A DNA stretch of 64,000 nucleotides from Myxococcota bacterium (GTDB lineage: Bacteria > Myxococcota_A > UBA796 > UBA9615 > JAKLKC01): assembly GCA_023150875.1 (NCBI GenBank), contig JAKLKC010000032.1, forward strand, positions 1 to 64,000, read 5' to 3'. The notes beneath the pieces were generated by a model that saw nothing but the letters and a program-made list of their open reading frames with translations, was not told the origin of the DNA and did not search any database. Of the stretch, positions 1 through 62,758 are shown piece after piece. The translations under genes and the position numbers were made by a program. Position 1 is the stretch's first letter. Each line of letters starts with the position of its first letter.

Positions 1-1511
1 AGGTCGGGGAAGTCGGGGCAGGCCGCCTCCTCCTCCACGTCCAGGGCGCAGTCTCCGTCCCGGTCCGCGAAGGGGTCTACGGCGATGACCGCGAGCCCCC
101 CGAGCCCACCGGCCCCATCGTCCCAGGAGGGGGCACCGAGGAGCAGGTCGGGGTAGTCGCCGCCGGTCCAGACCGCCGCGGCCACTCCCGTTCCCAAATG
201 TGCCGCGGGGCCTCCTTCCAGCACGATCATCGTCGCCCAGTCCCGCACGTCGCACTCCCCGGGGCAGGTGGCCATGAGGTCCGCGAGGCGGGGGGCGGAG
301 AGGTACCAGGTGGTGCCGGGGTAGGAAGCCGCGATACCTGGTGCTGAGATCACCAGTTCGTCGACGCCATCCTCGTCCAGGTCGACGGCGGCCAGGGTGG
401 AACCGAACAGGTCGCGGGTGGCGACGCCGGAGAGGATCACCGGTGGGGTTGACGGGGTGGCGGTGTCGTAGAGGTAGACGCGACCCGCGTCAATGGCTGT
501 GGCGTCGTACCTCGGTGCCCCGGTCACCGCCCACTTGCGCCCGGGATCTTGTGTGTGGAGCAGTGCCACGGAGATCGCCTCTTGCCCATCATTCGCGCAG
601 AGGGCGTCGGTGCACGGGTCTCCGTCCAGTTCCTGGCCCTCCGCCAGCACATCCGCCGCTGTGTCGTAGTTGAGGAGCCAGGACCGCCCGAGCGCGAATT
701 GGTCGAAGGGGTCCCTGGCGCCCGCGTGGATGGTTACCATCGCGCCGTACTCGTCGGGGACTACCGAGATAGACGCACCTACCTCCGCCAGCGCCGGTTC
801 GGAGATAGCGCCGCGGAGTTCGACATCCCCGAGAGGATCCATCCCGTATACGTCGATCCGCCCCTCTGGACCGCACTGGGGGCACCCAACGAATGCGAAC
901 CACTCCGTACCGACCTTCGCGGTGGCGATTGCTATGCCCAGCTTCCCATCGGCGCCTTCCGCGTCCAGGACGAGTGCCGGGGCACCTGCCACCGAGGCGC
1001 AGTCGTCCAGTGCCACGCCCCTCAAGTCGATTGCGAACACCTGGCTTCGTCGGCCGTTGCCGACGAGCAGCCACCCCCCCCCATCCATCGCGGGGAGAAT
1101 CGCCAAAGACAGTGGCTCCTCGGAGAGCAACTCCGCACCGTCGGGAGCAGGGACCGCAAGGGGGAGGGCGCACCAGGGAGTCCCCAGGTTCTCTATCCAC
1201 CGCAGTGCCAGGCTCCAGGGCGCGGCCCCCTCGGAGGGGTCTCCCGCGCTGACCAGCAGCGCCGCCCCATCGACGGACGCGGTGTGCAGTACCTCTCCCC
1301 ACCCGCGGCCCATAGCCGCCCCCGGCGTCTCCACGTCGGTGGCCGCCGCCGAAAGCGTCCCGATCCGGTCGATGGCCTCCAGCGGTTCACAGTCGGCGGA
1401 TCGAGGACAGACGGGTGCCGCGAAGACGGGCGGGATCCGGAAGCCGGTGGCCAGTCCCAGCGAGCCGAAGGCACACACCAGCAGAAACCGAGCGGTCAAC
1501 GTCATGTTCAT
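1..1511 (-). CDS. Secreted FG-GAP-type propeller protein, 3' end cut by window edge
   Basis: The reading frame is open from an ATG at 1511 to the left edge, giving 503 codons with no stop, so the C-terminus is missing. A signal peptide is visible (MNMTLTARFLLVCAFGSLGL, then a polar region). The body is Cys-poor and beta-rich. It has FG-GAP-like segments, for example VDLDEDGVDELVISAPG and DYPDLLLGAPSWDDG, typical of integrin-alpha-like propellers on the cell surface. The last visible residues (DRDGDCALDVEEE) look like the start of an Asp-rich calcium-binding or MopE region. Its ATG lies 25 nt after the stop of the upstream lipoprotein gene on the same strand, so the two are probably co-transcribed. 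A surface or secreted location is inferred; no enzymatic motif is seen. Confidence 0.8.
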   Translation of the reverse strand, partial: MNMTLTARFLLVCAFGSLGLATGFRIPPVFAAPVCPRSADCEPLEAIDRIGTLSAAATDVETPGAAMGRGWGEVLHTASVDGAALLVSAGDPSEGAAPWSLALRWIENLGTPWCALPLAVPAPDGAELLSEEPLSLAILPAMDGGGWLLVGNGRRSQVFAIDLRGVALDDCASVAGAPALVLDAEGADGKLGIAIATAKVGTEWFAFVGCPQCGPEGRIDVYGMDPLGDVELRGAISEPALAEVGASISVVPDEYGAMVTIHAGARDPFDQFALGRSWLLNYDTAADVLAEGQELDGDPCTDALCANDGQEAISVALLHTQDPGRKWAVTGAPRYDATAIDAGRVYLYDTATPSTPPVILSGVATRDLFGSTLAAVDLDEDGVDELVISAPGIAASYPGTTWYLSAPRLADLMATCPGECDVRDWATMIVLEGGPAAHLGTGVAAAVWTGGDYPDLLLGAPSWDDGAGGLGGLAVIAVDPFADRDGDCALDVEEEAACPDFPD

Positions 1512-1536
1512 CCCTCGATCCCATGAGCACCGCGCA

Positions 1537-2229
1537 TCAGGGAACCGCCGCGCACTCGATGGTCGGGTCATAGCCGTACAGGTCGCGGCAGTCCGCGTAG
1601 CTCGACGGAATGCCGTCATCGTCCTTGCAGTCGGGGTCCAGGCAGTCCTTCAGACCGTCCCCGTCGTCGTCTAGGCCGTTGTAGCAGGGCAAGGTTCCTG
1701 AGTAGTACTGGTCCTTCTCGTCCTGTTTCGCCCCGACGCTGATGTCATCGGGCGCACAGTCGTAGTCCGCCCCGTCGCAGCACCCGTCCCCGTCGTTGTC
1801 CACGTTATCGGCGCATGCGCCGTACAGCGGGATGGTCGGGGCCTGCGGGTTGTAATCCGGGCACACGTCCACCGGGGTCGTGTCGTCGTCGGGGAGGGTG
1901 GTGTCGTCGTCGGGGAGGGTGCTGTCGTCGTCGTCCCCGCTGTCGTCGTCGGTGGGGGTGGTGTCGTCGTCGGTGGTGGAGTCCCCGTCGGGGAAGGGGT
2001 CGTCGCAGTCGTCCCGGATGTGGTAGGCCGCCACGGTGCCGCAGGGGGGCTCGTCCTCGGCGAGCATGCGGCAGCCGTCGTCGCCGCCGCCGCGGGCGCA
2101 GGACAGGCCCAGGGCCAGGACCAGCAGCGCCGGCACGGGCGCGAGAGGCCGTTGGGGACGGCTCCGGTCCGGCGGGACGGCGGCGAGAAGGGAGGGGGAA
2201 CGGGAGGAAGGCGCGAGGCGATCCTTCAT
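1537..2229 (-). CDS. Asp-rich secreted protein or lipoprotein (DDDT linker)
   Basis: A 230-aa protein. A basic N-region of about 30 residues precedes a hydrophobic core (APVPALLVLALGLSC). The Cys is in a lipobox-like but imperfect setting (GLSC), so lipidation is likely but not certain. A low-complexity Asp/Thr linker (repeats of DDDTTLP) follows. Next comes a Cys-rich domain with Asp-Gly motifs (DNDGDGCCDGADYDC; DDDGDGLKDCLDPDC), resembling metal-binding motifs of myxobacterial surface proteins. The ATG at 2229 has GGAG eight bases upstream. It is the first gene of a likely two-gene unit with the propeller protein at 1-1511. A tandem GTAATGG box lies about 180 bp upstream. The function is unknown; a structural or cation-binding envelope role is inferred. 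Confidence 0.8.
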   Translation of the reverse strand: MKDRLAPSSRSPSLLAAVPPDRSRPQRPLAPVPALLVLALGLSCARGGGDDGCRMLAEDEPPCGTVAAYHIRDDCDDPFPDGDSTTDDDTTPTDDDSGDDDDSTLPDDDTTLPDDDTTPVDVCPDYNPQAPTIPLYGACADNVDNDGDGCCDGADYDCAPDDISVGAKQDEKDQYYSGTLPCYNGLDDDGDGLKDCLDPDCKDDDGIPSSYADCRDLYGYDPTIECAAVP

Positions 2230-2410
2230 CGGTCGACTCCACGGGCGGACCCGCCCCTGAAGCGGGCCGGCTCCACCGCTACCCCGATGATATCACCCCC
2301 GGTCCGCAAGTTCGGCGTACCTCCCTCGCCCGTCCGCTGCCGGCCCACCCGGCGTGCGGCGCGCTCGCGGAGTCGAAGCTAGCCCCAGGGGGACCGGTGC
2401 GCGCGGGTCG

Positions 2411-2430
2411 ACCATTACAGACCATTACAC
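2411..2430 (-). promoter_or_regulatory. Tandem GTAATGG box (copy a)
   Basis: On the minus strand there are two direct repeats of the form TGTAATGGTC, start-to-start 10 bp, about one helical turn. The pair faces the lipoprotein gene whose ATG is at 2229. The same 10-bp-spaced pair recurs at 2536-2555, 18566-18585 and 61089-61108. A regulatory protein-binding site is the simplest reading, but this is inferred from repetition only. Confidence 0.5.
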
Positions 2431-2530
2431 CGGCCCGCGTTCCCGATTCGTCCCGGCGCCCGGCCAGCGTTGGACCGACTCGCGGGCGAGCCGGCATGGT
2501 GGGCGTGGGTGACTTGGCCGGCACCGTGGG

Positions 2531-2636
2531 CGGGATGTAACGGTGCGTAATGGTGGGGCGTGGCGGCGCCCCTTGCGCGGGACGAAGTTGCGGGCCCCAC
2601 CCCTCTGTGAGGGGCGGGGGGATGGAGGAGGGTCGA
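2531..2636 (+). repeat. Structured GTAATGG-box element (copy b)
   Basis: Two box units (TGTAACGGTG at 2536, CGTAATGGTG at 2546) are followed by a hairpin with stem GGGGCG/CGCCCC (2555-2572). A conserved TTGCGC stretch follows, then a second hairpin (CCCCACCCC pairing with GGGGCGGGG, 2595-2619). The same order of parts, with different stem bases, is present on the minus strand at 18500-18590. It may be a small RNA, a leader or a dispersed repeat; nothing here decides between these. Confidence 0.5.
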
Positions 2637-2906
2637 ATGAAACGCGCGTGGGCGCCGTTCCGACCGCCCCGCGGGTGCTCCACCCCCTCCCCCCGCGGCC
2701 GGCCCGCGCACCGGATCGCCTCCGCCTCGCCGGCCCCTGCCCGGGCGGCGGGGTCTCAGCCAGCGCCCCCTTCCACCTCCTGGACGGTCACCTGGGAATG
2801 GGGACAGACCGCGGCATCCCCGTCGGCGAGCCGTTGCGCGGAGGTCGTGCACTCGAGCAGCCTCGGGGACGCGGGCTCGGTCTCGTGCCCCGCAGGGCCG
2901 ATGTGA
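2637..2906 (+). CDS. Possible small protein (weak)
   Basis: An 89-aa ORF starts at an ATG preceded at close spacing by GGAGGAGGG, and directly follows structured element b. Third codon positions are mostly G or C, as in real genes here. The product is rich in Ser, Ala and Pro with a few Trp (WTVTWEWGQ), has no recognisable domain and no clear signal peptide. It may be only a chance ORF in GC-rich DNA; the strong ribosome-binding site is the main support. Confidence 0.25.
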   Translation: MKRAWAPFRPPRGCSTPSPRGRPAHRIASASPAPARAAGSQPAPPSTSWTVTWEWGQTAASPSASRCAEVVHSSSLGDAGSVSCPAGPM

Positions 2907-3096
2907 GGCGGACTCGTCGGACGGGGAGGGGGCGTCCGCCAGGACGTCTGAGGCGAGGGAGACGAGGGGCGCAGTTCACCCACCGGGATCCCCAGAACGT
3001 CACAACCCCCGCCGACCCGGGTCCATGGACCGGGGCCAGCGGGGGCTGGAACTCTGGGCGAACGCCCCGACCTATGGCCGGGACGATCTCAGGTGA

Positions 3097-3516
3097 CTAC
3101 CAGCGGTCGCCGCCGCGGCCACCGCCGCCGCCCCGGCCGCCGCCGCCGCCGAAGCCGCCGCGACCGCCGCCGCCACCGCCGCCGAAGCCGCCGCCGCTCC
3201 GGCCGCCGCCGCCGCCGCCGAAGCCGCCGCGACCACCGCCGCCGAAGCCGCCGCCGCCGCCGCGGGGGCCCTTGTCCTCGGCCTCGTTCACCTTCACGGT
3301 GCGGCCGTCGAGGTTGGTGCCGTCCATCTGGGCGATGGCGTTGTCGGCGTCCTCGGCCTGGCTGAAGGTGACGAACCCGAACCCGCGGGAACGGCCGGTC
3401 TCGCGGTCATTGATGACCTTGGCGTCGGTGACCTCACCGAACCGCTCGAAGGCCTCCCGCAGACCCTCGTCGGTGGTGTTGAAGCTCAGGCCACCCACAA
3501 ACAGCTTCTTCGACAT
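3097..3516 (-). CDS. Glycine-rich RRM RNA-binding protein
   Basis: A 139-aa protein with one N-terminal RNA-recognition motif (residues 3-80). RNP2 (KLFVGGL) and RNP1 (RGFGFVTF), which contact single-stranded RNA, are both intact. The C-terminal third is a Gly/Arg tract of RGG and GGGGG repeats ending in GGDRW. This architecture matches bacterial Rbp and cold-inducible RNA-binding proteins, which act as RNA chaperones in the cytoplasm. The start at 3516 was chosen because GGAGAAGAGAG lies just upstream and the RRM begins at once; the frame extends further upstream without domain content. A 468-bp non-coding region in front leaves room for a long leader. Cold regulation is an inference from the family. 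Confidence 0.93.
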   Translation of the reverse strand: MSKKLFVGGLSFNTTDEGLREAFERFGEVTDAKVINDRETGRSRGFGFVTFSQAEDADNAIAQMDGTNLDGRTVKVNEAEDKGPRGGGGGFGGGGRGGFGGGGGGRSGGGFGGGGGGGRGGFGGGGGRGGGGGRGGDRW

Positions 3517-3984
3517 GACGTGCGACTCTCTTCTCCGGGAGTGCCGCCCTGCGGCATCTCCCCACGACGGTACGGGCGGAGGCGCCCGAAACCCCCCGCA
3601 CGGCCCCGATGGCCGCCCGGGGTCCGGTGCTCGCCTTACCTTGTCCGTACTCGCCTGGGAGTCAAACCAAGGAGGTGCGGTCGGGGAGGACGGGCCGGAT
3701 CCTGAACCTCTCCCTGACGTCAGGTCGAGGTTCGATGGTACCCTGGGCCGGGGCTCAGTCCCCGGTCCAGCGACCATGCCCGACGCGGGCGCGCCAAGCG
3801 ACGGAAGTATGTGCCGCGATTCCCGCGAGCGCAAGTGTCAAGAAGAGAGATCGTCGCTCTTTCTCTCGTGCCTCCGCCCGGCCGCGTCCCTCCGCTCCTT
3901 CCGCGGCCCCCGGTGCGGTCCTCAGGCGGCCCAGGTCCGCCGCGGTGCGGCCGCGGTGTGCCGCCCGCCGGGGAGGCGGGGCCG
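3517..3984. other. Intergenic region upstream of RNA-binding protein
   Basis: A 468-bp divergent spacer between the RRM gene (minus) and the Cys-cluster gene (plus). It should hold both promoters. No clear sigma-70 pair, repeat or RNA fold could be picked out by eye, and frames running through it look non-coding. Confidence 0.5.
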
Positions 3985-4605
3985 TTGAGCGGGAAGGCTG
4001 GCGGGGAACGGGGGCTCCGCCTCGGGCGCTGCGACCTCGCCGAGTGCGAGGGGGCGTGCTGCTACGACGGCGCCTACCTCGAGCCCGGCGAGGAGGAGGC
4101 GATCCTCGCCGCCATCGCGCGGGATCCCGCCCTGTTCTCCTCCCTGGACGGCCCGCCGGTGGTGGACGGCACGTGGCGCGGGATCGTGGCGGGACGGAAG
4201 ACCGGCGTGAGGCCCCACCGGTACCGCAGCCCGGAGTTCCCCGCCCACTTCGAGCAGACCCGGTGCGTGCTGGCCCTGCCCGACGCCCGATGCGCCCTCC
4301 AGGTCCATGCCGTCGCCCGGGGGATGCACCCCTTCGCCCTCAAGCCCCGGGCCTGCTGGATGCACCCCCTCCACGACGGGCCGTCCGGACCCGTCCCTCC
4401 CCCCGCCGATCCCGCGGCGGACCCCCACCGCGTGGACGCGGACTACCCGGGCTACGTCACGTTCACCGAGTGCGGCCGGCATCGCGACGGGGGCCTGCCG
4501 TGGCGCGAGGCGCTGGCGGAGGAGCTGAAATACGCGCGGATCCTGGCGAAGAGGGCCGCGACGGCGGCGTGGCGGCGGGCCAGGGCGGAGGGCGACGAGG
4601 GCTAG
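3985..4605 (+). CDS. DUF3109/YkgJ-like cysteine-cluster protein
   Basis: A 206-aa protein. The Cys cluster near the N-terminus (CDLAECEGACCYDGAYLE), a second segment RCVLALPDARCALQ, the KPRACWMHPL motif and a late TECG together resemble the DUF3109/YkgJ zinc- or iron-binding family. KP.(S/A)C...P is characteristic of DUF3109. The molecular role of that family is not established. The TTG at 3985 was chosen because GGGAGGCGGGG lies just upstream; the frame extends to 3811 but that extension is Pro/Arg-rich with no domain. The gene is convergent with the Asp-box protein gene and the two share the palindrome CTAG as their overlapping stop codons. Confidence 0.8.
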   Translation: MSGKAGGERGLRLGRCDLAECEGACCYDGAYLEPGEEEAILAAIARDPALFSSLDGPPVVDGTWRGIVAGRKTGVRPHRYRSPEFPAHFEQTRCVLALPDARCALQVHAVARGMHPFALKPRACWMHPLHDGPSGPVPPPADPAADPHRVDADYPGYVTFTECGRHRDGGLPWREALAEELKYARILAKRAATAAWRRARAEGDEG

Positions 4606-7265
4606 CGTGCCGGACCTCTCCCCCGTCGCCGGCTCGTCCCCCATCCCAGCAGCGCAAGCGCCCCCGCGGCCGCTGCGCCGCCGGCCCGCCCGGGAGGGCC
4701 CTGCGCGGCCTGGCAGCCCTCGCAAGGGCCGCAGGGCGCGTCGCCGTCGGCGCAGTCCTGGTCCGCGCCGTCCCCGCAGACCTCCTCGCCGCCCGGATGG
4801 ACGTCCACCCGGGTGTCGTCGCAGTCGGAGCAGGCCGGGAAGCCGTCCCCGTCTCCGTCGGTCTCGACGACGTCCTGGGGATCGCAGTTGGCGTCGGCGC
4901 CGTCGCAGGTCTCCGCCGCCCCCGGGTGGACCGCGGGATCGGCGTCGTCGCAGTCCGTGTCGCAGAGGGTTCCGTCCCCGTCGCGGTCCACCGGGGGGTA
5001 GCAGCCCTCCCCCTCGGGGTCGAGCTGGTAGTCCCAGATCCCCCGGCCGTACGTGCCGAAGCGCATGGTGTTCTCGTGGACCAGCGCCTCGACGCTCCAG
5101 TGGATCGTCACCGGCGAGTCCACCCCCGAGATCGCGTACCACTCGCCCCCCGGGTCCCTGCGCCAGGCGGCGGTCTCGGCGCCCGCGAAGAGGCGCCCGG
5201 AGCCGTCCGGGGCCTCGGCGAGGGCGTACACCAGCGTGTCGGGGAGGCCCTCGGAGTAGGGCTCGAAGGTCCGCCCTCCGTCGGTGCTCCGCCACACCGC
5301 GGGTGTCCCGTAGCCGCTCCCGCCGGCGTAGACGGTGTCCGCGTCCGTCCGGGAGGGGAGCAACGCCGTGCCGTAGAAGTAGTGGGCCTCGGGTCCCGGA
5401 CCCTGCGCCTCCTCCCAGGTCACCCCCTTGTCCTCGGAGCGGAAGAGCCGCCCTTTGGCGGTGGCCAGCCACGCCCGGCGCGGGTCGGAGGGCGCGAACG
5501 CCAAGGCGGAGATCAGGTCCCCGTCGGCGCCGAAGTCGGTCTCCGACCACAGTTCGGGGGACCACTCGGCGTCGTCCGTTCGCGTGAAGTACCAGAGGCG
5601 CGTCCCCGGGAAGAAGAAGCGCGAGGGGTACTCGGGATCCGCCACCACGGGCGGCAGCCACTCCCAGCGTTCGTCGGGGGGGAAGTCCACGAAGAACATC
5701 TCGGGATCGGTCTCCCCCTTCTGGACCAGCACGAAGCCGGGGTAGACCGAGAAGACCCAGTCGTGGGTGCCGTTCGCCGACGTCAGGTGGCCGTAGTCGC
5801 CGCTGATCCACTGCAGGAAGTCCAGGCGCTCCGCCCCTTGCGCCACGCCGGCAGTCAACTGGTAGCCCTGGTCCTGGGAGCCGCCGGCGATGTGGGCGGG
5901 ATCGGCGGCGGACGTCAGGGTGGAGTAGTACTGGGAGACCCGGAGTCCCCGGAGGGACAGGTTCTCGAGGGTGAGCAGCCCGTCGTCGGAGCGGTAGAGG
6001 CCCCCGTCGCCGTTGATGAACCACGTCTCTCCCCCCTGCCCGTCGGGCTCGACGTCGATGCCCATGACGTCGGCGTGCAGGAGGCTCGCGGGGTCCTCGT
6101 AATACTCCCACCACTCGTTCACCCGCGCGAACGAGGCGCCGCCATCCCCGGTGCGCCACAGCTCGAAGCCGCCCACGGCGAAGAGATCGGGGTCGACGGT
6201 GGATGCCGCCAGCTCGCCCCAGTAGTCGGAGATGGGGGGGAGCTCGACCCACTCCGCCCCCGCGTCGTCCGAGCGAAAGAGCTCCACCCCCGCGTCGCCG
6301 GGGACCACCGCCCACAGCCGCGGCGCGCCGGCCTCCGAGCCGGTCAGGTCCACCCGCGCGCCCGCCGTGGGGATCGAGCCGACCGGCTCGAAGGTGTCCC
6401 CGAGGTCGTGGCTCACCGTCAGGAGCCCGTCCACCACGAGGTAGACCGCGGAGCCCCCCACCCGGGGGACCCACACGTCCCCCTGGAAGCGTCCCAGGTC
6501 CTGGACCTCGTGGAAGGAGCGGCCCCCATCCTGGGAGCGAAGGAGCGCGTAGTCCTCCCAGGCCCCACCGACCAGGAACACCGTCGGTGAGGCGCCCGGG
6601 GTGGCGACGAGCCGCTTCGCATGGGTCAGGTAGGGCAGCTCGGCGGGCTCCCAGGTCCGGCCACCGTCCGCGCTGCGGTGGACCGAGCCCCAGTCCGTGG
6701 CGGCGATCAGGGCGTCGGGGCCCTCCCCCTCTTCCGGGGGGAGGACGGCGAGGGAGTGGGCTCCCCCGTACAGGCCGTCGGCGATGGGCGCCCAGCCCGT
6801 GCCGTCGGGCGTACCCTCCCAGATCCCCCCCAGCGCGGTCCCGGTGTAGATCCGCGTGCCGTCGGTGGAGAGGTGGGTGGTGTGGACGCGCCCGGCGAGG
6901 TTGTCGCTGCCCCTCTCCACCCAACGCTCCGGACCGGTCGGGGCGGCCGTGGCCAGCACCCTCTGGTTCCGGGCCCGCAGGAGGGTCGCCGCGGTGCGAC
7001 GCTCCGCCTCCTCCCAGTCGTAGCCCGGCGGCGCCCGGTGGCGGGCCTTCATCCACGCCTTGCGGTCCCGGGACGATCTCTTCTCGTCCCCGTCCGCGAG
7101 GACGTGCTCCGTCGGCCGCGGCGGCCCCTCCCCCCGGGAGGCCACCGAGGCAGTGAGACGCTGTGCGGGGGTGGCCGGTTCCGGACCGCGGGAGGGGCCG
7201 CGGGCGATCAGGAAGCAGGCCGCGGCGCCGAACGCGGCCGCGGCGAGGAGGCGGCGAGCTCTCAA
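4602..7265 (-). CDS. Asp-box (BNR/VPS10-type) surface protein with MopE motif and C-terminal anchor
   Basis: An 887-aa protein from a TTG at 7265 with GGGACGG upstream. An N-terminal membrane segment or signal (LLAAAAFGAAACFLIA) is followed by about seven Asp-box repeats: RSADGGRTW, RSQDGGRSF, VSHDLGDTF, RSDDAGAEW, RTGDGGASF, RSEDKGVTW and RSTDGGRTF. This marks a sialidase/sortilin/Ycf48-like beta-propeller; the fold does not define an activity. Next come MopE-type Cys/Asp motifs (CDTDCDDADPAVHPGAAETC). The C-terminus has a Cys pair, a short hydrophobic helix (GGAAAAGALALLGWG) and an Arg cluster, as in MYXO-CTERM sorting tails. Export and surface anchoring are inferred. A TACAAT hexamer lies 36 bp upstream of the start. 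Confidence 0.88.
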   Translation of the reverse strand: MRARRLLAAAAFGAAACFLIARGPSRGPEPATPAQRLTASVASRGEGPPRPTEHVLADGDEKRSSRDRKAWMKARHRAPPGYDWEEAERRTAATLLRARNQRVLATAAPTGPERWVERGSDNLAGRVHTTHLSTDGTRIYTGTALGGIWEGTPDGTGWAPIADGLYGGAHSLAVLPPEEGEGPDALIAATDWGSVHRSADGGRTWEPAELPYLTHAKRLVATPGASPTVFLVGGAWEDYALLRSQDGGRSFHEVQDLGRFQGDVWVPRVGGSAVYLVVDGLLTVSHDLGDTFEPVGSIPTAGARVDLTGSEAGAPRLWAVVPGDAGVELFRSDDAGAEWVELPPISDYWGELAASTVDPDLFAVGGFELWRTGDGGASFARVNEWWEYYEDPASLLHADVMGIDVEPDGQGGETWFINGDGGLYRSDDGLLTLENLSLRGLRVSQYYSTLTSAADPAHIAGGSQDQGYQLTAGVAQGAERLDFLQWISGDYGHLTSANGTHDWVFSVYPGFVLVQKGETDPEMFFVDFPPDERWEWLPPVVADPEYPSRFFFPGTRLWYFTRTDDAEWSPELWSETDFGADGDLISALAFAPSDPRRAWLATAKGRLFRSEDKGVTWEEAQGPGPEAHYFYGTALLPSRTDADTVYAGGSGYGTPAVWRSTDGGRTFEPYSEGLPDTLVYALAEAPDGSGRLFAGAETAAWRRDPGGEWYAISGVDSPVTIHWSVEALVHENTMRFGTYGRGIWDYQLDPEGEGCYPPVDRDGDGTLCDTDCDDADPAVHPGAAETCDGADANCDPQDVVETDGDGDGFPACSDCDDTRVDVHPGGEEVCGDGADQDCADGDAPCGPCEGCQAAQGPPGRAGGAAAAGALALLGWGTSRRRGRGPAR

Positions 7266-7300
7266 GTTCCGTCCCGTGCTCAGGGCAGCATCGCGCCGGC

Positions 7301-7306
7301 ATTGTA
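7301..7306 (-). promoter_or_regulatory. Candidate -10 element
   Basis: On the minus strand TACAAT sits 36 bp upstream of the TTG start of the Asp-box protein. No convincing -35 hexamer is found at 16-18 bp, so this is only a candidate. Confidence 0.3.
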
Positions 7307-7394
7307 CGCCGAAGTGGGCCTCGGGCGCTCCGGGGACGGCAGCCTGTCCCGGGCGCCCTCGGCCTGCTATACAGCGGGGGGCGTTCGGTCGGCC

Positions 7395-7583
7395 CCTCAG
7401 ACTCGGGTTTCGCATTCCTGGCCTGCTGCGGTCCGTCCTGGCCGGCCGCGGCGGCGTCGCGGTGCCGGATTTCTTGGTCGATGTGGGTCCACCACACCTC
7501 CCGCGAAGTCCGGCCCTGCTCCTTGCCGGGGCTCGGCCAGTCCTGGACCTCGCGACGGCCCGAAAGTGCGAAACACGAGTCAG
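7395..7583 (+). repeat. 189-bp MITE-like element, copy 1
   Basis: This segment is repeated at 51386-51574 in the same orientation and equal length, with four base differences found by eye. The ends form imperfect terminal inverted repeats of about 20 bp: the left end reads CAGACTCGGGTTTCGCATT and the right end, read inward, CTGACTCGTGTTTCGCACT. No transposase is encoded. Several frames are open through it, but the copy differences change amino acids in the minus-strand frame I checked (W/G, T/V, A/V), so coding is unlikely. It fills most of the divergent spacer (7266-7605) between the Asp-box protein and the MgtC-like gene. Target-site duplications are not evident. Confidence 0.8.
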
Positions 7584-7605
7584 GGGCGGAGGGTGGCGCA
7601 GGGTC

Positions 7606-8862
7606 GTGACCTGGCTGGATCGGGAGGACGTGCGCCTCGGGATCTCCCTCGCCATCGGTCTGCTGATCGGGGCAGAGCGGGAGCGCAGCAAGGGGGGCGA
7701 GCCCCACCGGACCGCCGCGGGGGTCCGCACGTTCGCCCTGGTCTCCCTCGGGGGCGGCCTCGGCATGTTGCTGGGGGTCGACGCGGTGGTGGTGGTGTCG
7801 GCGCTGTTCGTGGCGCTGCTGGCCGCCCTCTCGTACGCGCTGGGGGATCGGGGGGACCGGGGCCTGACCACCGAGGTGGCCTTGCTGGTGGCGTTCCTGC
7901 TGGGGGCCCTGGCCACGCGGGAGCCGCGCCTGGCGGCGGGGCTGGCGGTGGTGGTCACCATCCTGCTGGCAGGCCGGGGGAGGATCCACGGCTTCGTGCG
8001 CAACGTGCTGACGGAGCACGAGATGCACGACGGCCTGCTGCTGGCGGCGGCGGCCCTGGTGATCCTCCCCCTCGCCCCCGACCAGGCCGTCGGGCCTTAC
8101 GGGGCCCTCAACCCCCGCACGTTGTGGCGGCTGGTGGTGCTGCTGATGGCCCTCTCGTCGGCGGGGTACCTGGCGGTCCGCCTTCTGGGGCCCCGGGCCG
8201 GCCTGCCCCTCTCGGGGCTGGCGTCGGGCTTCGTGTCCAGCTCCGCCACCATCGGGGCCATGGGGGCCCGGGCGGTGGGGGAGCCGCGCCAGCGCCGGGC
8301 CGCGGTGGCGGGGGCGGTCCTCTCGAACCTCGCCACCGTGGCGCAGCTCGCCATCGTCGTCGGGGCCACCAGCGCCGGGGTGCTGGCGCGCCTCGCCTGG
8401 CCCCTGCTGGTGGCGGGGACGGCGATGGTCGTCCTGGGGAGCGTCGCGGCTGTGCGCGCCTTCCGGGAGCCCAAGGCGGCGGCGGAGCCCCAGCGGGGGC
8501 GCCCCTTCGATCCTCGGCTGGCCCTGAGCTTCGCAGGGGTCGTCGCCGTGGTGACGCTGGGGGCCGCGGCCGTCCACGACGGGCTCGGCGACGCGGGCCT
8601 GGCGGTGGCCGCCGCCCTGGCAGGGTTCGCCGACGTCCACGCCGCGGCGATCTCCGTGGCCGCGCTGGCCGCGGGGGAGCGGTTCGCCCCCGGGGACGCC
8701 GCCATCCCCATCCTCGCCGGCCTCACCGCCAACACCGTCACCAAGGCGGTGGTGGCCGCGGGCACGGGAGGCCGCCGCTACCTGGCCGACCTGCTCCCCG
8801 CCCTCGTCGCCCTGGTGGGGGGCGCGTGGCTGGGTTGGTGGGTGTCGGAGCGGATCGGCTGA
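7606..8862 (+). CDS. MgtC/SapB-DUF4010 family membrane protein
   Basis: A 418-aa polytopic inner-membrane protein. The N-terminal part has the MgtC/SapB signature (LGISLAIGLLIGAERERSKG, then AGVRTFALVSLGGGLG). The C-terminal two-thirds matches the DUF4010 partner domain, with about ten further hydrophobic segments and the conserved-looking SGLASGFVSSSATI and GLTANTVTKA. Proteins with this architecture are suspected to act in ion homeostasis or transport, but no substrate is established. The GTG at 7606 was chosen because GGAGGG lies upstream and the MgtC domain starts at once. The frame extends further upstream only through the repeat element. The gene stands alone on the plus strand. Confidence 0.88.
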   Translation: MTWLDREDVRLGISLAIGLLIGAERERSKGGEPHRTAAGVRTFALVSLGGGLGMLLGVDAVVVVSALFVALLAALSYALGDRGDRGLTTEVALLVAFLLGALATREPRLAAGLAVVVTILLAGRGRIHGFVRNVLTEHEMHDGLLLAAAALVILPLAPDQAVGPYGALNPRTLWRLVVLLMALSSAGYLAVRLLGPRAGLPLSGLASGFVSSSATIGAMGARAVGEPRQRRAAVAGAVLSNLATVAQLAIVVGATSAGVLARLAWPLLVAGTAMVVLGSVAAVRAFREPKAAAEPQRGRPFDPRLALSFAGVVAVVTLGAAAVHDGLGDAGLAVAAALAGFADVHAAAISVAALAAGERFAPGDAAIPILAGLTANTVTKAVVAAGTGGRRYLADLLPALVALVGGAWLGWWVSERIG

Positions 8863-16154: not shown

Positions 16155-16481
16155 CGACCCGCCTCCGGAGGGCCCGCCGCCGGGCCCGCACCCGAGATCG
16201 AACCATGGCACCGATCGCCGCCGTTGCGCCAGCCCCTTCCCCGAGCGAGGAGCGCGGGGGGGCGCAGTCCCCTCGGTGGACCTGGCCCGGAGTCCGGCGT
16301 GGCGGGCCGCGAGCCCTAGCGCGGGGCCGGTTCCCCGCCCCGTCCCAGCTCCAACCCGCTTCCCAATTCCATACCCGTCCGAGATGCAAACGGCCGGTCA
16401 AGTCTGACAAACTATTGTAAACACTGACGTAATGGCGCGGATCAGCCCGCCGCCTCCCGCCGCGGGTGGTAGCATCGCGCC
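16155..16481. other. Intergenic region upstream of metalloprotease
   Basis: A 327-bp divergent spacer. It contains one of the few AT-richer stretches of the window (16400-16435), with a degenerate tandem GTAATGG box near 16416-16437. Otherwise no gene, repeat or RNA structure is seen. Confidence 0.5.
16416..16437 (+). promoter_or_regulatory. Degenerate tandem GTAATGG box (copy e)
   Basis: A half unit TGTAA at 16416 is followed 12 bp later by a full CGTAATGG unit at 16428, 45 bp upstream of the metalloprotease ATG. Spacing and the first unit differ from the other copies, so this one is less certain. Confidence 0.35.
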
Positions 16482-18401
16482 ATGAACATCTTCCATCCCC
16501 CCTTGCGTCGGGGGCCTGCCGCGTTCTCGCGGCGCGCCCTCTCCCCCACCCTCCTCGCCCTGGCGGGCGTCCTCGGGGCCACGACCCCGGCGGCGGCGTT
16601 CACGGGTGGAGAGAAGCCCTTCCGCGACCCGTCGTTCGACCAGCGGGACTACGCGCCCGAGACCCAGAAGGTCCTGGCCGCCGGTCCCGCGTGGACCGGC
16701 TTCGTCCAGCGCGCCGGCGGCGGGTGGTCCGCTCGGTTCGACGAGAGGACCGGTACTCCCCTGCGCTTCTACGGGAGCGGCATCGAGGTCGGCCAGCCCC
16801 AGGATGCCGCCCACGCCCTGGAGGTGGCCACCGCCTTCTTCACCGAGAATGCCGATCTGCTCGGGGCCGAAGTCGAGGTCGACGACCTGGTCCCCGTGAC
16901 GAACGTCGACCGGTACGGCACGCGCATCGTGGCGTTCCAGAGGACGTGGCAGGGGATCCCGGTCGAGGGCGCCCACGCCCACGTCCGGATCCGCCAGGGT
17001 CGGATCTTCATGGGCGGCGTGGACACCCGCCCCGGCCTGCAGGTCGCCACCTCGCCCGCCATCACCGCCGATGACGCCTACGCCGTGGCGGACGACGCCC
17101 TCGCCGAGATGGGCTCCGGCGGCTCCCGGGACCTGCAGGGCCCTCCGGAGCTGCTCGTCCACTCCATGCCCGTCGAGGGCGGCTACGAGCATCGCCTGGC
17201 CTGGAGGGTGCGGATCGCCCGGATCGACGCGCCGGGACTGTGGGACACGTACGTCGACGCCGTCACCGGCGAGGTCGTCGACCGGCGCGACCGGATCCAC
17301 CGCATGGGCGGTATCGTCAACGCCCGCCACGACCGACGCACCGTCACGGCGACGCCCGACTGGGCCAACTCGCCCGTCGCCTTCGGCCAGGTGAAGGTGG
17401 AAGGCCAGTCGGTGGTCACCGACGAGACCGGACGCTTCATCGCCGAGGCCACGGGGACCGCGACCCTGAGCGCTGGGGTGACGGGGACCTACGTGAAGGT
17501 CCAGAACCAGAGCGGCGGGGCGTCCCTCACGGGTTCGTGGGAGGTCGAGGACGGGGACGTGGCGACCCTGGCCGGGAGCGGGAGCGACGGCGACATCGCG
17601 CAGCTCGACGCCTACGTGTTCACGAGCCAGGCGCGGGAGTACTGCGCCGCCATCGCCCCGGACAACGCCTTCGTGAACGGCCAGGTCCAGGTCAAGGTGA
17701 ACCACGGCCAGACCTGCAACGCCTACTTCGACGGGTCGTCCATCAACTTCTACAAGGCGGGGGGAGGCTGCAACAACACCGCGCGGATCGCCGACGTCGT
17801 GTATCACGAGTTCGGACACGGCTTCCACTACCGCCAGGTGGTCGGCGGCATGGCGGCGATGGACGAGGCCCTCTCCGAGGGGGCGAGCGACTACCTGTCG
17901 GCGACGATGCTGGACGATCCGTACCTGGGACGGGGGATCTACTCGTCGGACCTGGACGAGCCCTTCCGGGAGATCGACTCCGACTACGTCTGGCCCGATG
18001 ACAAGGACTCCGATCCCCACCTCACGGGCCAGATCTTCGGTTCGGCCATGTGGGACCTGCGCGGCGCGCTGTCGGAGACCCTGGGACCGGTCGAGGGCGT
18101 GGCCCACGCGGACTGGCTCTGGGCCGAGGCGCTGGCGGGGGCGTACGACATCCCGTCGAGCTACGAGGAGATCCTCGCCGCCGACGACGACGACGCCGAC
18201 CTGTCCAACGGCACGCCCAACCAGGAGGTCATCGACGAGGTCTTCGCGGCCCACGGCCTCGGCCCGGCGTACGGGAGCCCCGGAGGGGGCGGTCCGGGCG
18301 GGGGTGGTCCGGGTGGGGGCGGCCCGGGCGGGGGTGGTCCGGGTGGGGGCGGCCCGGGTGGGGGTGGTCCGGGTGGGGGCTGGCCTCCTGGGCACCCCTA
18401 G
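16482..18401 (+). CDS. Secreted zinc metallopeptidase (FTP propeptide, M4/M36-like)
   Basis: A 639-aa preproenzyme. A signal peptide (hydrophobic LSPTLLALAGVLGATTPAAA, cleavage after AAA) is followed by an FTP-type propeptide region. The catalytic zinc motif HEFGH is at residues 442-446 (VVYHEFGHGFHY), with the third-ligand helix in MDEALSEGASDY about 25 residues later. These are hallmarks of gluzincin peptidases related to fungalysin and thermolysin. The C-terminus is a run of GGGGP repeats ending in WPPGHP, which may be a flexible tether. It likely digests external protein (inference from family). A degenerate GTAATGG box sits 45 bp upstream. The ATG at 16482 follows directly after a short leader without a strong ribosome-binding site. 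Confidence 0.92.
   Translation: MNIFHPPLRRGPAAFSRRALSPTLLALAGVLGATTPAAAFTGGEKPFRDPSFDQRDYAPETQKVLAAGPAWTGFVQRAGGGWSARFDERTGTPLRFYGSGIEVGQPQDAAHALEVATAFFTENADLLGAEVEVDDLVPVTNVDRYGTRIVAFQRTWQGIPVEGAHAHVRIRQGRIFMGGVDTRPGLQVATSPAITADDAYAVADDALAEMGSGGSRDLQGPPELLVHSMPVEGGYEHRLAWRVRIARIDAPGLWDTYVDAVTGEVVDRRDRIHRMGGIVNARHDRRTVTATPDWANSPVAFGQVKVEGQSVVTDETGRFIAEATGTATLSAGVTGTYVKVQNQSGGASLTGSWEVEDGDVATLAGSGSDGDIAQLDAYVFTSQAREYCAAIAPDNAFVNGQVQVKVNHGQTCNAYFDGSSINFYKAGGGCNNTARIADVVYHEFGHGFHYRQVVGGMAAMDEALSEGASDYLSATMLDDPYLGRGIYSSDLDEPFREIDSDYVWPDDKDSDPHLTGQIFGSAMWDLRGALSETLGPVEGVAHADWLWAEALAGAYDIPSSYEEILAADDDDADLSNGTPNQEVIDEVFAAHGLGPAYGSPGGGGPGGGGPGGGGPGGGGPGGGGPGGGGPGGGWPPGHP
18290..18379 (+). repeat. 15-bp tandem repeat coding GGGGP
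   Basis: Six 15-bp units, each of the form (C/T)GGYCCGGGYGGGGG, lie at the 3' end of the metallopeptidase gene and encode the GGGGP tail. Units vary at a few C/T positions. The G-rich strand is the coding strand. Confidence 0.9.
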
Positions 18402-18499
18402 CGGGGGGCGTGGAGCCGGGGGTCAGGGGCCCGTGCGGGCCGCCCGTGAGGGCTCCACGCGGGCCGCAATTGAAGTAACGCGCGCGCGGCCGACCCACC

Positions 18500-18590
18500 T
18501 CCTCCCCCCACCCTTGGGTGGGGCGAGGATCGTCGCCCGCGGCGCAAGGGCGTCGCAACGCCCTCCCATTACGCGCCATTACATCCCCGC
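18500..18590 (-). repeat. Structured GTAATGG-box element (copy c)
   Basis: Read on the minus strand: two box units GATGTAATGG and CGCGTAATGG (18566-18585), then a hairpin GGGCGT/ACGCCC (18548-18563), a TTGCGC stretch, and the palindrome CCCCACCCTTGGGTGGGG (18506-18523). The same parts in the same order occur on the plus strand at 2531-2636. Here the element sits between two convergent gene ends (metallopeptidase and aminotransferase), where a promoter for either gene is not expected. Confidence 0.5.
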
Positions 18591-61088: not shown

Positions 61089-61108
61089 TGTAATGGTGTG
61101 TAATGGTG
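61089..61108 (+). promoter_or_regulatory. Tandem GTAATGG box (copy d)
   Basis: Two identical units TGTAATGGTG, start-to-start 10 bp, lie in the divergent spacer between the kinase-FGE gene and the envelope protein gene (ATG 61166, 57 bp away). A hairpin ATCCCC/GGGGAT follows at 61118-61132. This is the most perfect copy of the box in the window. Confidence 0.55.
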
Positions 61109-61165
61109 GTGGCGCGGATCCCCGACGGGGATGTGCTCCAGTGCGGTGGAACATGGAGGTGCACG

Positions 61166-62758
61166 ATGGCCCCCTCCCCGCGTATGCGGCGTCTTCTCCT
61201 TCTCGCCCCCGTCGTCCTCGGCTCCCTGTCCCGCGTCCCGGCCGCGTCCGCCGCGGGCCCTCCCGTCGAGGTGATCTGGTTGCCCCGGGCGGGGGATCCC
61301 GCCGAGGACCTGCCCGAGCTCTACCGCCTGCTCCCAAGGGCGGCGAGCATGCTGGTCGATCCCCGGGACTTCACGGTCCACCCCGCCTCCTCGGTCACCG
61401 TCCAGGACGCCCTGCGGGAGGCCGATCCCCGGGTGCGGGCGAACGACTGCCCCGAAGACGACTCGTGGCTCTGGCAGCGTTTCGTTCCCACCCGGCTCGC
61501 CAAGGCGGTGGCCAGGGCCTCGTCCCCCGGCGAGTACGAGGCGGCGCTGGGCCTCTTCGATGACCTGCTCGCCCACATACCTTGCGCGTGGACCCCGGTG
61601 TCGCCGGCGGAGTTGCGGACCGCCCTCGTCCTGACGGCCACGGCGGCCCTGCGCGCGGGCAGGGACGAGTCGGAGTTCCTCGACGCCGCCGTCGCCGCCG
61701 ACCCCACCTGGGAGGCGGCCGACGACTCCCTGCCCGAAGACCTGCGGCCAGCCTGGAGCGCCGCCCGGAGCCGCCACTTCCAGCTCGCGGCGCCCGACGT
61801 GGAGCTGGTGGACGGTGGCCGCTACTCCGACCGCGAGATCCTGATCGACGGGCGTCCCCTGCCCCTTCCCCGCCCCGGGTCCTTGAGGCTCCGACCGGGG
61901 CACCACCTCGTCCAGGCGGTCGAGGACGGGACCCACGCCCTCTCCGCCCTCTTCACCGTCCCCGCCGACGGCCCCCCCGGGCCCCTGCGCCTCGCCGACC
62001 TGCTCCCCGAGCTCACCCGAGACCCCGACGCAGAGCTGACCCGCGCGTTCCGGGACGGCGAGATGCCGGAGTGGATGTGGCAGGCCCTCCTCGGGGTGGA
62101 GCGGCGGCGGGGTCGGCAATACACGTTCCTGGCGGCCCTCACCGGCGCGGACGACCCCGGGGCGCCGGTCCCGGGTCTCCGGATCTGGTACCTCGACCCC
62201 GAGGCCGGGCCCCGGCCCCTCCCGAAGGAGCTCTGGGGCTCGGCCTTCCGGGCTCCCGCCGCGTCCCGGCTGGGGGCGGCCCTCTCGGCGAACGCGTGGA
62301 GGGGCCCCGGAGTCGGCGGGAACGTGGCCCTGGACTTCACGCAGTATGGGGGCCGTTCCTGGCTCGGGGCGGCGGGGGACGTGCGCGTCAGGCTGTGGAG
62401 GCCCCTCCACCTGCGGGCGGGGGGACTCGTCGGCACGAACCTCGGGTTCGGCGCCAGTGGAGGCGGCGACGCGGGCGGCGCCCGGGGCCTCATGGTCGGC
62501 CTGGCCCGGCTCGGGGTGGAGGCACGGACGCCCATCGGACCCATCCGACCTTACGGCGGAGCCGATCTCCAGGGGTGGATCACCGAGCGGCACCACGTCC
62601 GGCTGGCCCCCGCGGCGCACCTGGGGGTAGACTTCCGGAGGCCGGGGGAGGCCAGGGGACCCTTCGTCGAGGGGGGAGTGACCTTCCCGACATCGGGGGA
62701 CGAGGGGACGCCCGAGTGGACCTTCGGTGTGGAGGCGGGCTGGCGCTGGGATCCCTGA
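61166..62758 (+). CDS. Exported protein with probable C-terminal beta domain, unknown
   Basis: A 530-aa protein with a signal peptide (MRRLLLLAPVVLGSLSRVPA, cleavage near ASAA). The first half is helical with two to three Cys residues (ANDCPEDDSWLWQRF). A PEGA-like segment (REILIDGRPLPLPRPGSLRLRPGHHLVQ) follows. The last 180 residues are strand-rich with alternating hydrophobic and Gly/aromatic residues (GGNVALDFTQYGGRSWLGAA, GLVGTNLGFGAS, FGVEAGWRWDP) and end in W-D-P, which suggests an outer-membrane beta-barrel. Start 61166 has GGAGGTGC before it. No named family. It is divergent from the kinase-FGE gene and forms a pair with the gene at 62823. Confidence 0.82.
   Translation: MAPSPRMRRLLLLAPVVLGSLSRVPAASAAGPPVEVIWLPRAGDPAEDLPELYRLLPRAASMLVDPRDFTVHPASSVTVQDALREADPRVRANDCPEDDSWLWQRFVPTRLAKAVARASSPGEYEAALGLFDDLLAHIPCAWTPVSPAELRTALVLTATAALRAGRDESEFLDAAVAADPTWEAADDSLPEDLRPAWSAARSRHFQLAAPDVELVDGGRYSDREILIDGRPLPLPRPGSLRLRPGHHLVQAVEDGTHALSALFTVPADGPPGPLRLADLLPELTRDPDAELTRAFRDGEMPEWMWQALLGVERRRGRQYTFLAALTGADDPGAPVPGLRIWYLDPEAGPRPLPKELWGSAFRAPAASRLGAALSANAWRGPGVGGNVALDFTQYGGRSWLGAAGDVRVRLWRPLHLRAGGLVGTNLGFGASGGGDAGGARGLMVGLARLGVEARTPIGPIRPYGGADLQGWITERHHVRLAPAAHLGVDFRRPGEARGPFVEGGVTFPTSGDEGTPEWTFGVEAGWRWDP

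Follow-up and report, generated by a model that had tools for sequence, protein, structure and literature searches.

A tandem GTAATGG operator with fixed promoter geometry precedes protein genes and a repeated RNA-like unit in a Myxococcota-like genome

GTAATGG boxes occur in pairs as a real and highly specific tandem operator, which has a fixed promoter geometry and some 20 targets genome-wide. Four pairs with a 10-bp period were located in the window, by which we mean the whole stretch of DNA analysed (64,000 nucleotides). Three of them contain the exact GTAATGG-N3-GTAATGG pattern (2412–2428 and 18566–18582 on the minus strand, 61090–61106 on the plus strand), and the fourth (2537–2553, plus strand) has one mismatch, GTAACGG. 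These four pairs had been reported in the preliminary description and are indeed present. The degenerate pair that it had also reported at 16416–16437 is just a single GTAATGG at 16429, at chance level and below 9 bits. The window holds 7 pairs with up to 3 mismatches against 0.46 expected, a number reached in none of 100 shuffles, and 8 single GTAATGG against 0.68 expected.

The proposed scan of the genome for GTAATGG units at 10-bp spacing gave 15 exact pairs in 6.92 Mb and none with the reversed-pattern control. With up to 3 mismatches to TGTAATGGYNYGTAATGGT, 22 matches were found genome-wide and 0 with the control. The 15 exact pairs, two of which are overlapping matches in a triple box of contig C93, together with six one-mismatch pairs make 20 loci, four of them in the window. 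In 263 kb of DNA from the same genome (some stretches overlapping), real sites scored 31.8–40.4 bits against 16.9 bits for the best other sequence, and no site of intermediate strength was seen. Alignment of 18 of the 20 loci, without two near-identical copies in contig C143, gave the consensus TGTAATGG-YNY-GTAATGG-T. Invariant positions are T−1, G0, T1, A2 and A3 in the first box and GTAAT in the second, which is preceded by C or T in every case. Eleven loci lie before protein genes (class P) and nine belong to an RNA-like unit (class R).

The distance from the boxes to promoter-like elements was counted from the first G of box 1. In both classes an AT-rich −10-like element begins at offset 47–48. 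For class P the geometry was tested on ten independent sites, the C143 paralogue being excluded. Both the 7-base window richest in AT and the best −10-like hexamer started at offset 47, and each of the two values was reached by 0 of 3000 random rotations of the downstream sequences. T at offset 24 (6/10) and G at offset 26 (9/10) were enriched in the same sites; single −10-like hexamers often match TATAAT poorly. Class R has its AT-rich stretch at 48–54 (next best 47–53) and a TTGCG/TGGCG element at 24. The TGGCG...TTGCG look of the R units led us to consider a sigma-54 promoter, for which the elements are, by eye, one base too far apart; a −35/−10 pair fits all R units better. Since the −10-like element begins at offset 47, the boxes would occupy roughly −60 to −42, next to a weak −35. 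This predicted position upstream of a weak −35 is the place where an activator would sit.

A same-strand start codon was found 59–182 nt from the box in all ten class-P loci that could be read, the eleventh site (in C154) being about 105 nt from a contig end. For nine of the eleven sites the start was assigned by script, with ORFs accepted by third-position GC, and the start in C136 was chosen by hand. The two outcomes that the preliminary description had named against its own reading, sites random with respect to gene starts and a single repeat family behind all of them, were thus not observed: ten of eleven class-P sites point at a start, and the repeat family accounts for only 9 of the 20 loci. 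As for its statement that three window sites lie upstream of exported-protein genes, this holds for the sites at 2411 and 61089, whereas those at 2536 and 18565 precede the RNA-like unit. The description had missed that two of the four true window sites head copies of a repeated RNA-like transcription unit.

Table. Box pairs and associated features in the window, with the contractile injection locus from elsewhere in the genome. Offsets are from the first G of box 1.
Feature	Coordinates	Strand	Remarks
Box pair, class P, TGTAATGGTCTGTAATGGT	2411..2429	-	39.2 bits
-10-like hexamer TAGCTT, offset 47	2376..2381	-	
Lipoprotein-like gene	1537..2229	-	start 182 nt after the 2411 boxes
Box pair, class R, TGTAACGGTGCGTAATGGT	2536..2554	+	34.0 bits
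Promoter-like -35 GTGGCG (2560-2565), 18-nt spacer, -10 GAAGTT (2584-2589)	2560..2589	+	
Putative sRNA: 5' hairpin CCCCACCCCUCUGUGAGGGGCGGGG, GGAUGGAGGAGGG tail, CGCGCG stretch	2594..2655	+	approximate ends
Putative sRNA, subfamily 2, CCCCACCCAAGGGUGGGGGGAGGAGGUGGG and CGCGCG stretch	18475..18524	-	87.5 bits; approximate ends
Box pair, class R	18565..18583	-	between 3' ends of two converging genes
Box pair, class P, TGTAATGGTGTGTAATGGT	61089..61107	+	40.4 bits
-10-like hexamer TCCAGT, offset 47	61137..61142	+	poor match
Exported-protein gene	61166..62758	+	start 59 nt after the 61089 boxes
Contractile injection system genes (sheath, gp19 tube, CIS_tube)	L129 (G000:C180:138000-157119) 3490-8590	-	boxes before sheath gene

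About eight of the ten class-P products were judged by eye to be exported or membrane-bound. Neither of the two class-P genes in the window gave a Pfam match in its product; a paralogue of the lipoprotein-like gene in C143 has the same boxes upstream. The C136 gene, which was not called by the automatic gene caller, starts 95 nt after the box and encodes a lipoprotein resembling DUF3006, just below the Pfam cut-off. Other products are a MopE-type metal-binding repeat protein, a membrane-anchored proline-rich protein in C103 that runs off its contig, a protein in C118 placed by eye in the exported or membrane set, a protein in C144 with a weak export signal and two possible starts, and a kinase-like protein (Pkinase E 1.7e-4, below cut-off). 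A phage-like tail sheath is the first of a gene run that includes gp19 tube and CIS_tube products. Two of the ten products are not exported.

The nine class-R loci are the window sites 2537 and 18566 (minus strand), three copies in C143 in tandem with 172-bp spacing, and one each in C93, C124, C135 and C155. Each unit spans about 105 bp, in which the boxes and a promoter are followed by a C-rich hairpin, a GGAGGAGG tail (in C124 GACGGTGG) and a CGCGCG stretch. The hairpin, CCCCACCC...GGGNGGGG, lies at the predicted 5' end. A sequence-only model built from seven units and run with strict filters on 71 genomes of the class recovered the nine units and no other match, and every one of the nine has boxes. 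The RNA-core pattern matched eight of the nine, C135 having G for the last A, and nothing elsewhere in the class. When genome contigs were scanned with the RNA core, 60 stretches gave one match each, none with boxes by eye, and these appear to be chance matches or unrelated sequence. Of seven R sites examined, five are followed by a nearest gene on the opposite strand and two by one on the same strand. Window 1–2648 and L025 (G000:C143) 424–3073, each at the start of its contig, are paralogous and 86% identical. Both have the lipoprotein gene, boxes of the 2411 type and the R unit, which is present once in the window and in three tandem copies in C143. Window 16482–18401 encodes an exported M4 (thermolysin-like) protease, just above the Pfam cut-off, with a Gly-rich repetitive tail.

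We consider it quite probable, judging from the sequence, that the R unit is transcribed as a multicopy sRNA. The units fold stably, mostly not better than shuffles. The units form two near-clonal subfamilies, which gave no covariation. Rfam gave no match in the window at the gathering score, and on seven loci sub-threshold matches alone (E 0.6–0.74). Two loci of Deltaproteobacteria bacterium M1802 (L100 at 3403 and L102, reverse, at 2892) have a sigma-54-like TGGCACG...CTTGA element followed after about 10–15 nt by the hairpin GCCCCACCCAGGGYGGGGGGA, which resembles the R-unit hairpin. These loci could be another sRNA family.

The tail of the R unit is Shine-Dalgarno-like and rich in GGA, and one CsrA gene was found in the genome. 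As a guess, the R RNA may compete by this GGA-rich tail, e.g. by titration of CsrA or by pairing with C-rich RNA. Its action is the least certain part of the best explanation. Pairing of the tail with class-P leaders (9 of 11) was compared with 144 control leaders. The first tail gave a mean of −28.2 against −23.5 kcal/mol and the second a slight gain, −25.8 against −23.3 kcal/mol. Against dinucleotide shuffles the advantage was lost (mean z −0.59 and 0.19), so it was taken as a composition effect and leader pairing was rejected; two single leaders still paired better than their shuffles for one tail.

Several known systems resemble the finding, as far as the available portions of the cited articles describe them. 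In streptococci, the direct-repeat regulator of CiaRH drives protein operons and similar intergenic small RNAs (PMC3091779). As there, a short direct repeat stands close upstream of the promoters of protein genes and of sibling RNA-like units; the repeat promoter and nine sibling units were seen here, with no U-tract terminator at the window copy (2300–2900). The CiaR repeat is TTTAAG-N5-TTTAAG with an 11-bp period, 10 nt from the −10 (PMC3091779), whereas here it is TGTAATGG with a 10-bp period, 30 nt from the −10. The csRNAs are complementary to the Shine-Dalgarno sequence (PMC3091779), whereas the R tail is itself Shine-Dalgarno-like. LhrC1-5 of Listeria is a multicopy sRNA wholly dependent on LisRK and linked to the cell envelope (PMC4132741). 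It shares with our case a multicopy RNA-like unit under one putative regulator and an envelope link, but has CU-rich pairing sites, unlike the R unit (PMC4132741). Pxr of myxobacteria, an intergenic stem-loop sRNA with tandem paralogues in Cystobacter (PMC5568312), is similar in kind and in its tandem copies. It differs from the R unit in its sigma-54 promoter, three stem-loops and length of 108 nt (PMC5568312), and the available text of that article makes no mention of tandem boxes.

The envelope regulon of enterobacterial CpxR has the direct repeat GTAAA(N)4-8GTAAA (PMC6298763), which is the closest printed operator among those compared. With N5 it has a 10-bp period, as does GTAAT-N5-GTAAT here. 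The boxes nevertheless do not fit the CpxR operator: GG after GTAAT and the preceding T are extra invariant bases, and the sites hardly vary, whereas those of CpxR do. The cyanobacterial RpaB site HLR1 is a TTACA-type direct repeat near promoters (PMC6331805); its sites are degenerate and belong to another group of organisms and other targets (PMC6331805), whereas the boxes here are near-invariant. The finding thus appears to be a variant of a known pattern, in which a direct-repeat regulator serves envelope genes and sibling sRNAs (CiaRH/csRNA, LisRK/LhrC).

The preliminary description had suggested a shared regulator bound to one face of the helix. The invariable 10-bp period, the fixed distance to the −10 and the position upstream of starts fit this suggestion, which is partly supported. 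OmpR-family regulators, to which RpaB belongs, use TGTAA-type direct repeats of 10-bp period placed directly before the −35, and their operators are usually less uniform than the GTAATGG sites. The layout of OmpR/PhoB operators, two head-to-tail half-sites 10–11 bp apart adjoining the promoter, is found here. It is possible, as a tentative assignment, that the box-binding factor is a response regulator of this family. Six Trans_reg_C matches were found in the genome, four of them response regulators (L051–L054), and no box lies near any of the four genes. In an NCBIfam comparison of L051, L052 and L054, L054 looked OmpR/CpxR-like but fell below both equivalog cut-offs, with 184.4 bits against 341 for CpxR, which does not fit a CpxAR system. 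Relatives of L051, L053 and L054 with about 60–73% identity and the same or nearly the same recognition helix occur in order-level genomes that lack the motif. For L052 no relative above 43% identity was seen among the 30 loci of relatives compared, of 58 domain matches. L052 (G000:C90:53852) is therefore the best candidate by distribution, with L054 (G000:C44:115385) second.

The presence of about 20 near-identical pairs at a fixed promoter distance indicates that they probably serve one specific regulatory circuit. The explanation we favour, with moderate confidence, is that the boxes are the operator of one dedicated activator for about 20 promoters, of protein genes and of an sRNA family. 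The strand of the gene next to most R sites speaks for it as well. Against it count the site uniformity, unusual for OmpR-family operators, the lack of boxes near the four response-regulator genes, the relatives of three of them in genomes that lack the motif, the mostly unremarkable folding of the R units with neither covariation nor a U-tract terminator in the window copy, and the two products that are not exported. The activator role is inferred. Position alone is no proof of activation, and the uniformity of the sites suggests an unusual binder; a repressor, or another direct-repeat binder such as a BldC- or lambda-CII-like protein, could own the sites. We regard this as unlikely, as the boxes lie upstream of a poor −35 and not over it, the usual place of an activator.

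Less likely still is that the boxes are part of a mobile or repetitive extragenic element, with the R units as its copies and the P sites as leftover fragments. The R units are repeated, partly in tandem, and the paralogous C143 and window segments carry three copies and one. The conserved block, however, starts at the boxes and ends with the RNA-like part, the P sites share with the R units nothing beyond boxes and promoter features, and all ten readable P sites point at a gene start. Comparably improbable is a reading of the R units as a family of peptide genes, in which each unit would be the leader of a very short ORF with a good Shine-Dalgarno sequence. All five copies of subfamily 1 have GGAGG and, 7–8 nt on, (A/T)TG-AA(A/T)-CGC, but their frames are inconsistent in length (89, 12, 12, 93 and 32 aa), for which reason this reading was set aside; moreover, subfamily 2 has no start at that distance and yet keeps the hairpin, GGAGG and CGCGCG.

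In the favoured explanation, the putative activator would bind two head-to-tail half-sites on one helix face just upstream of the −35 of weak promoters and recruit RNA polymerase to about 20 of them. Eleven would serve protein genes, mostly for exported proteins and lipoproteins, but also a contractile-injection operon and a kinase-like gene. From the other nine a multicopy RNA of about 60 nt would be transcribed, probably non-coding, with a C-rich 5' hairpin and an exposed GGAGGAGG tail.

The genome, the sole member of its family in the comparison set, looks like a deep Myxococcota-like lineage by RpoB identity: 77% to an order-level relative (partial), 68–69% to two class members, 67% to Hyalangium, 58% to a Desulfovibrionaceae genome and about 49% to Planctomycetota. 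Among 70 other genomes of the class neither TGTAATGGNNTGTAATGG nor, under strict filters, the R unit was found, and confinement of the motif to one genome counts against the favoured explanation. The looser pattern TGTAATGNNNTGTAAT gave five matches in three other class genomes against 0 for the control. These TGTAATG-N3-TGTAAT pairs lie in L148–L150 (G002), L159 (G054) and L160 (G058), and in G002, which has three of them, one pair is followed at 30 nt by TATAGT, the same distance as in this genome. These matches are suggestive. Literature searches for TGTAATGG with direct repeat and response regulator gave nothing related by title and abstract, those for GTAATGG alone nothing related by title among the matches listed, and those for injection systems with response regulator, promoter and Myxococcota no match.

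A further-reaching version is a lineage-specific circuit in which one stringent regulator co-activates the injection system, exported proteins and a nine-copy sRNA, the exposed GGAGGAGG tail of which mimics a Shine-Dalgarno/GGA site and so titrates CsrA or occupies the 16S anti-Shine-Dalgarno. Such an sRNA would be a Shine-Dalgarno-mimicking counterpart of the anti-Shine-Dalgarno csRNAs; taken as a whole this version is rather doubtful. If the favoured explanation is true, it would provide a regulon whose operator, promoter geometry and some 20 targets are already described in a deep, little-studied myxobacterium-like class, and its all-or-none operator would ease isolation of the regulator by its DNA. 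A contractile injection system and exported proteins would be linked to a multicopy sRNA, whose exposed sequence would be Shine-Dalgarno-like and not anti-Shine-Dalgarno.
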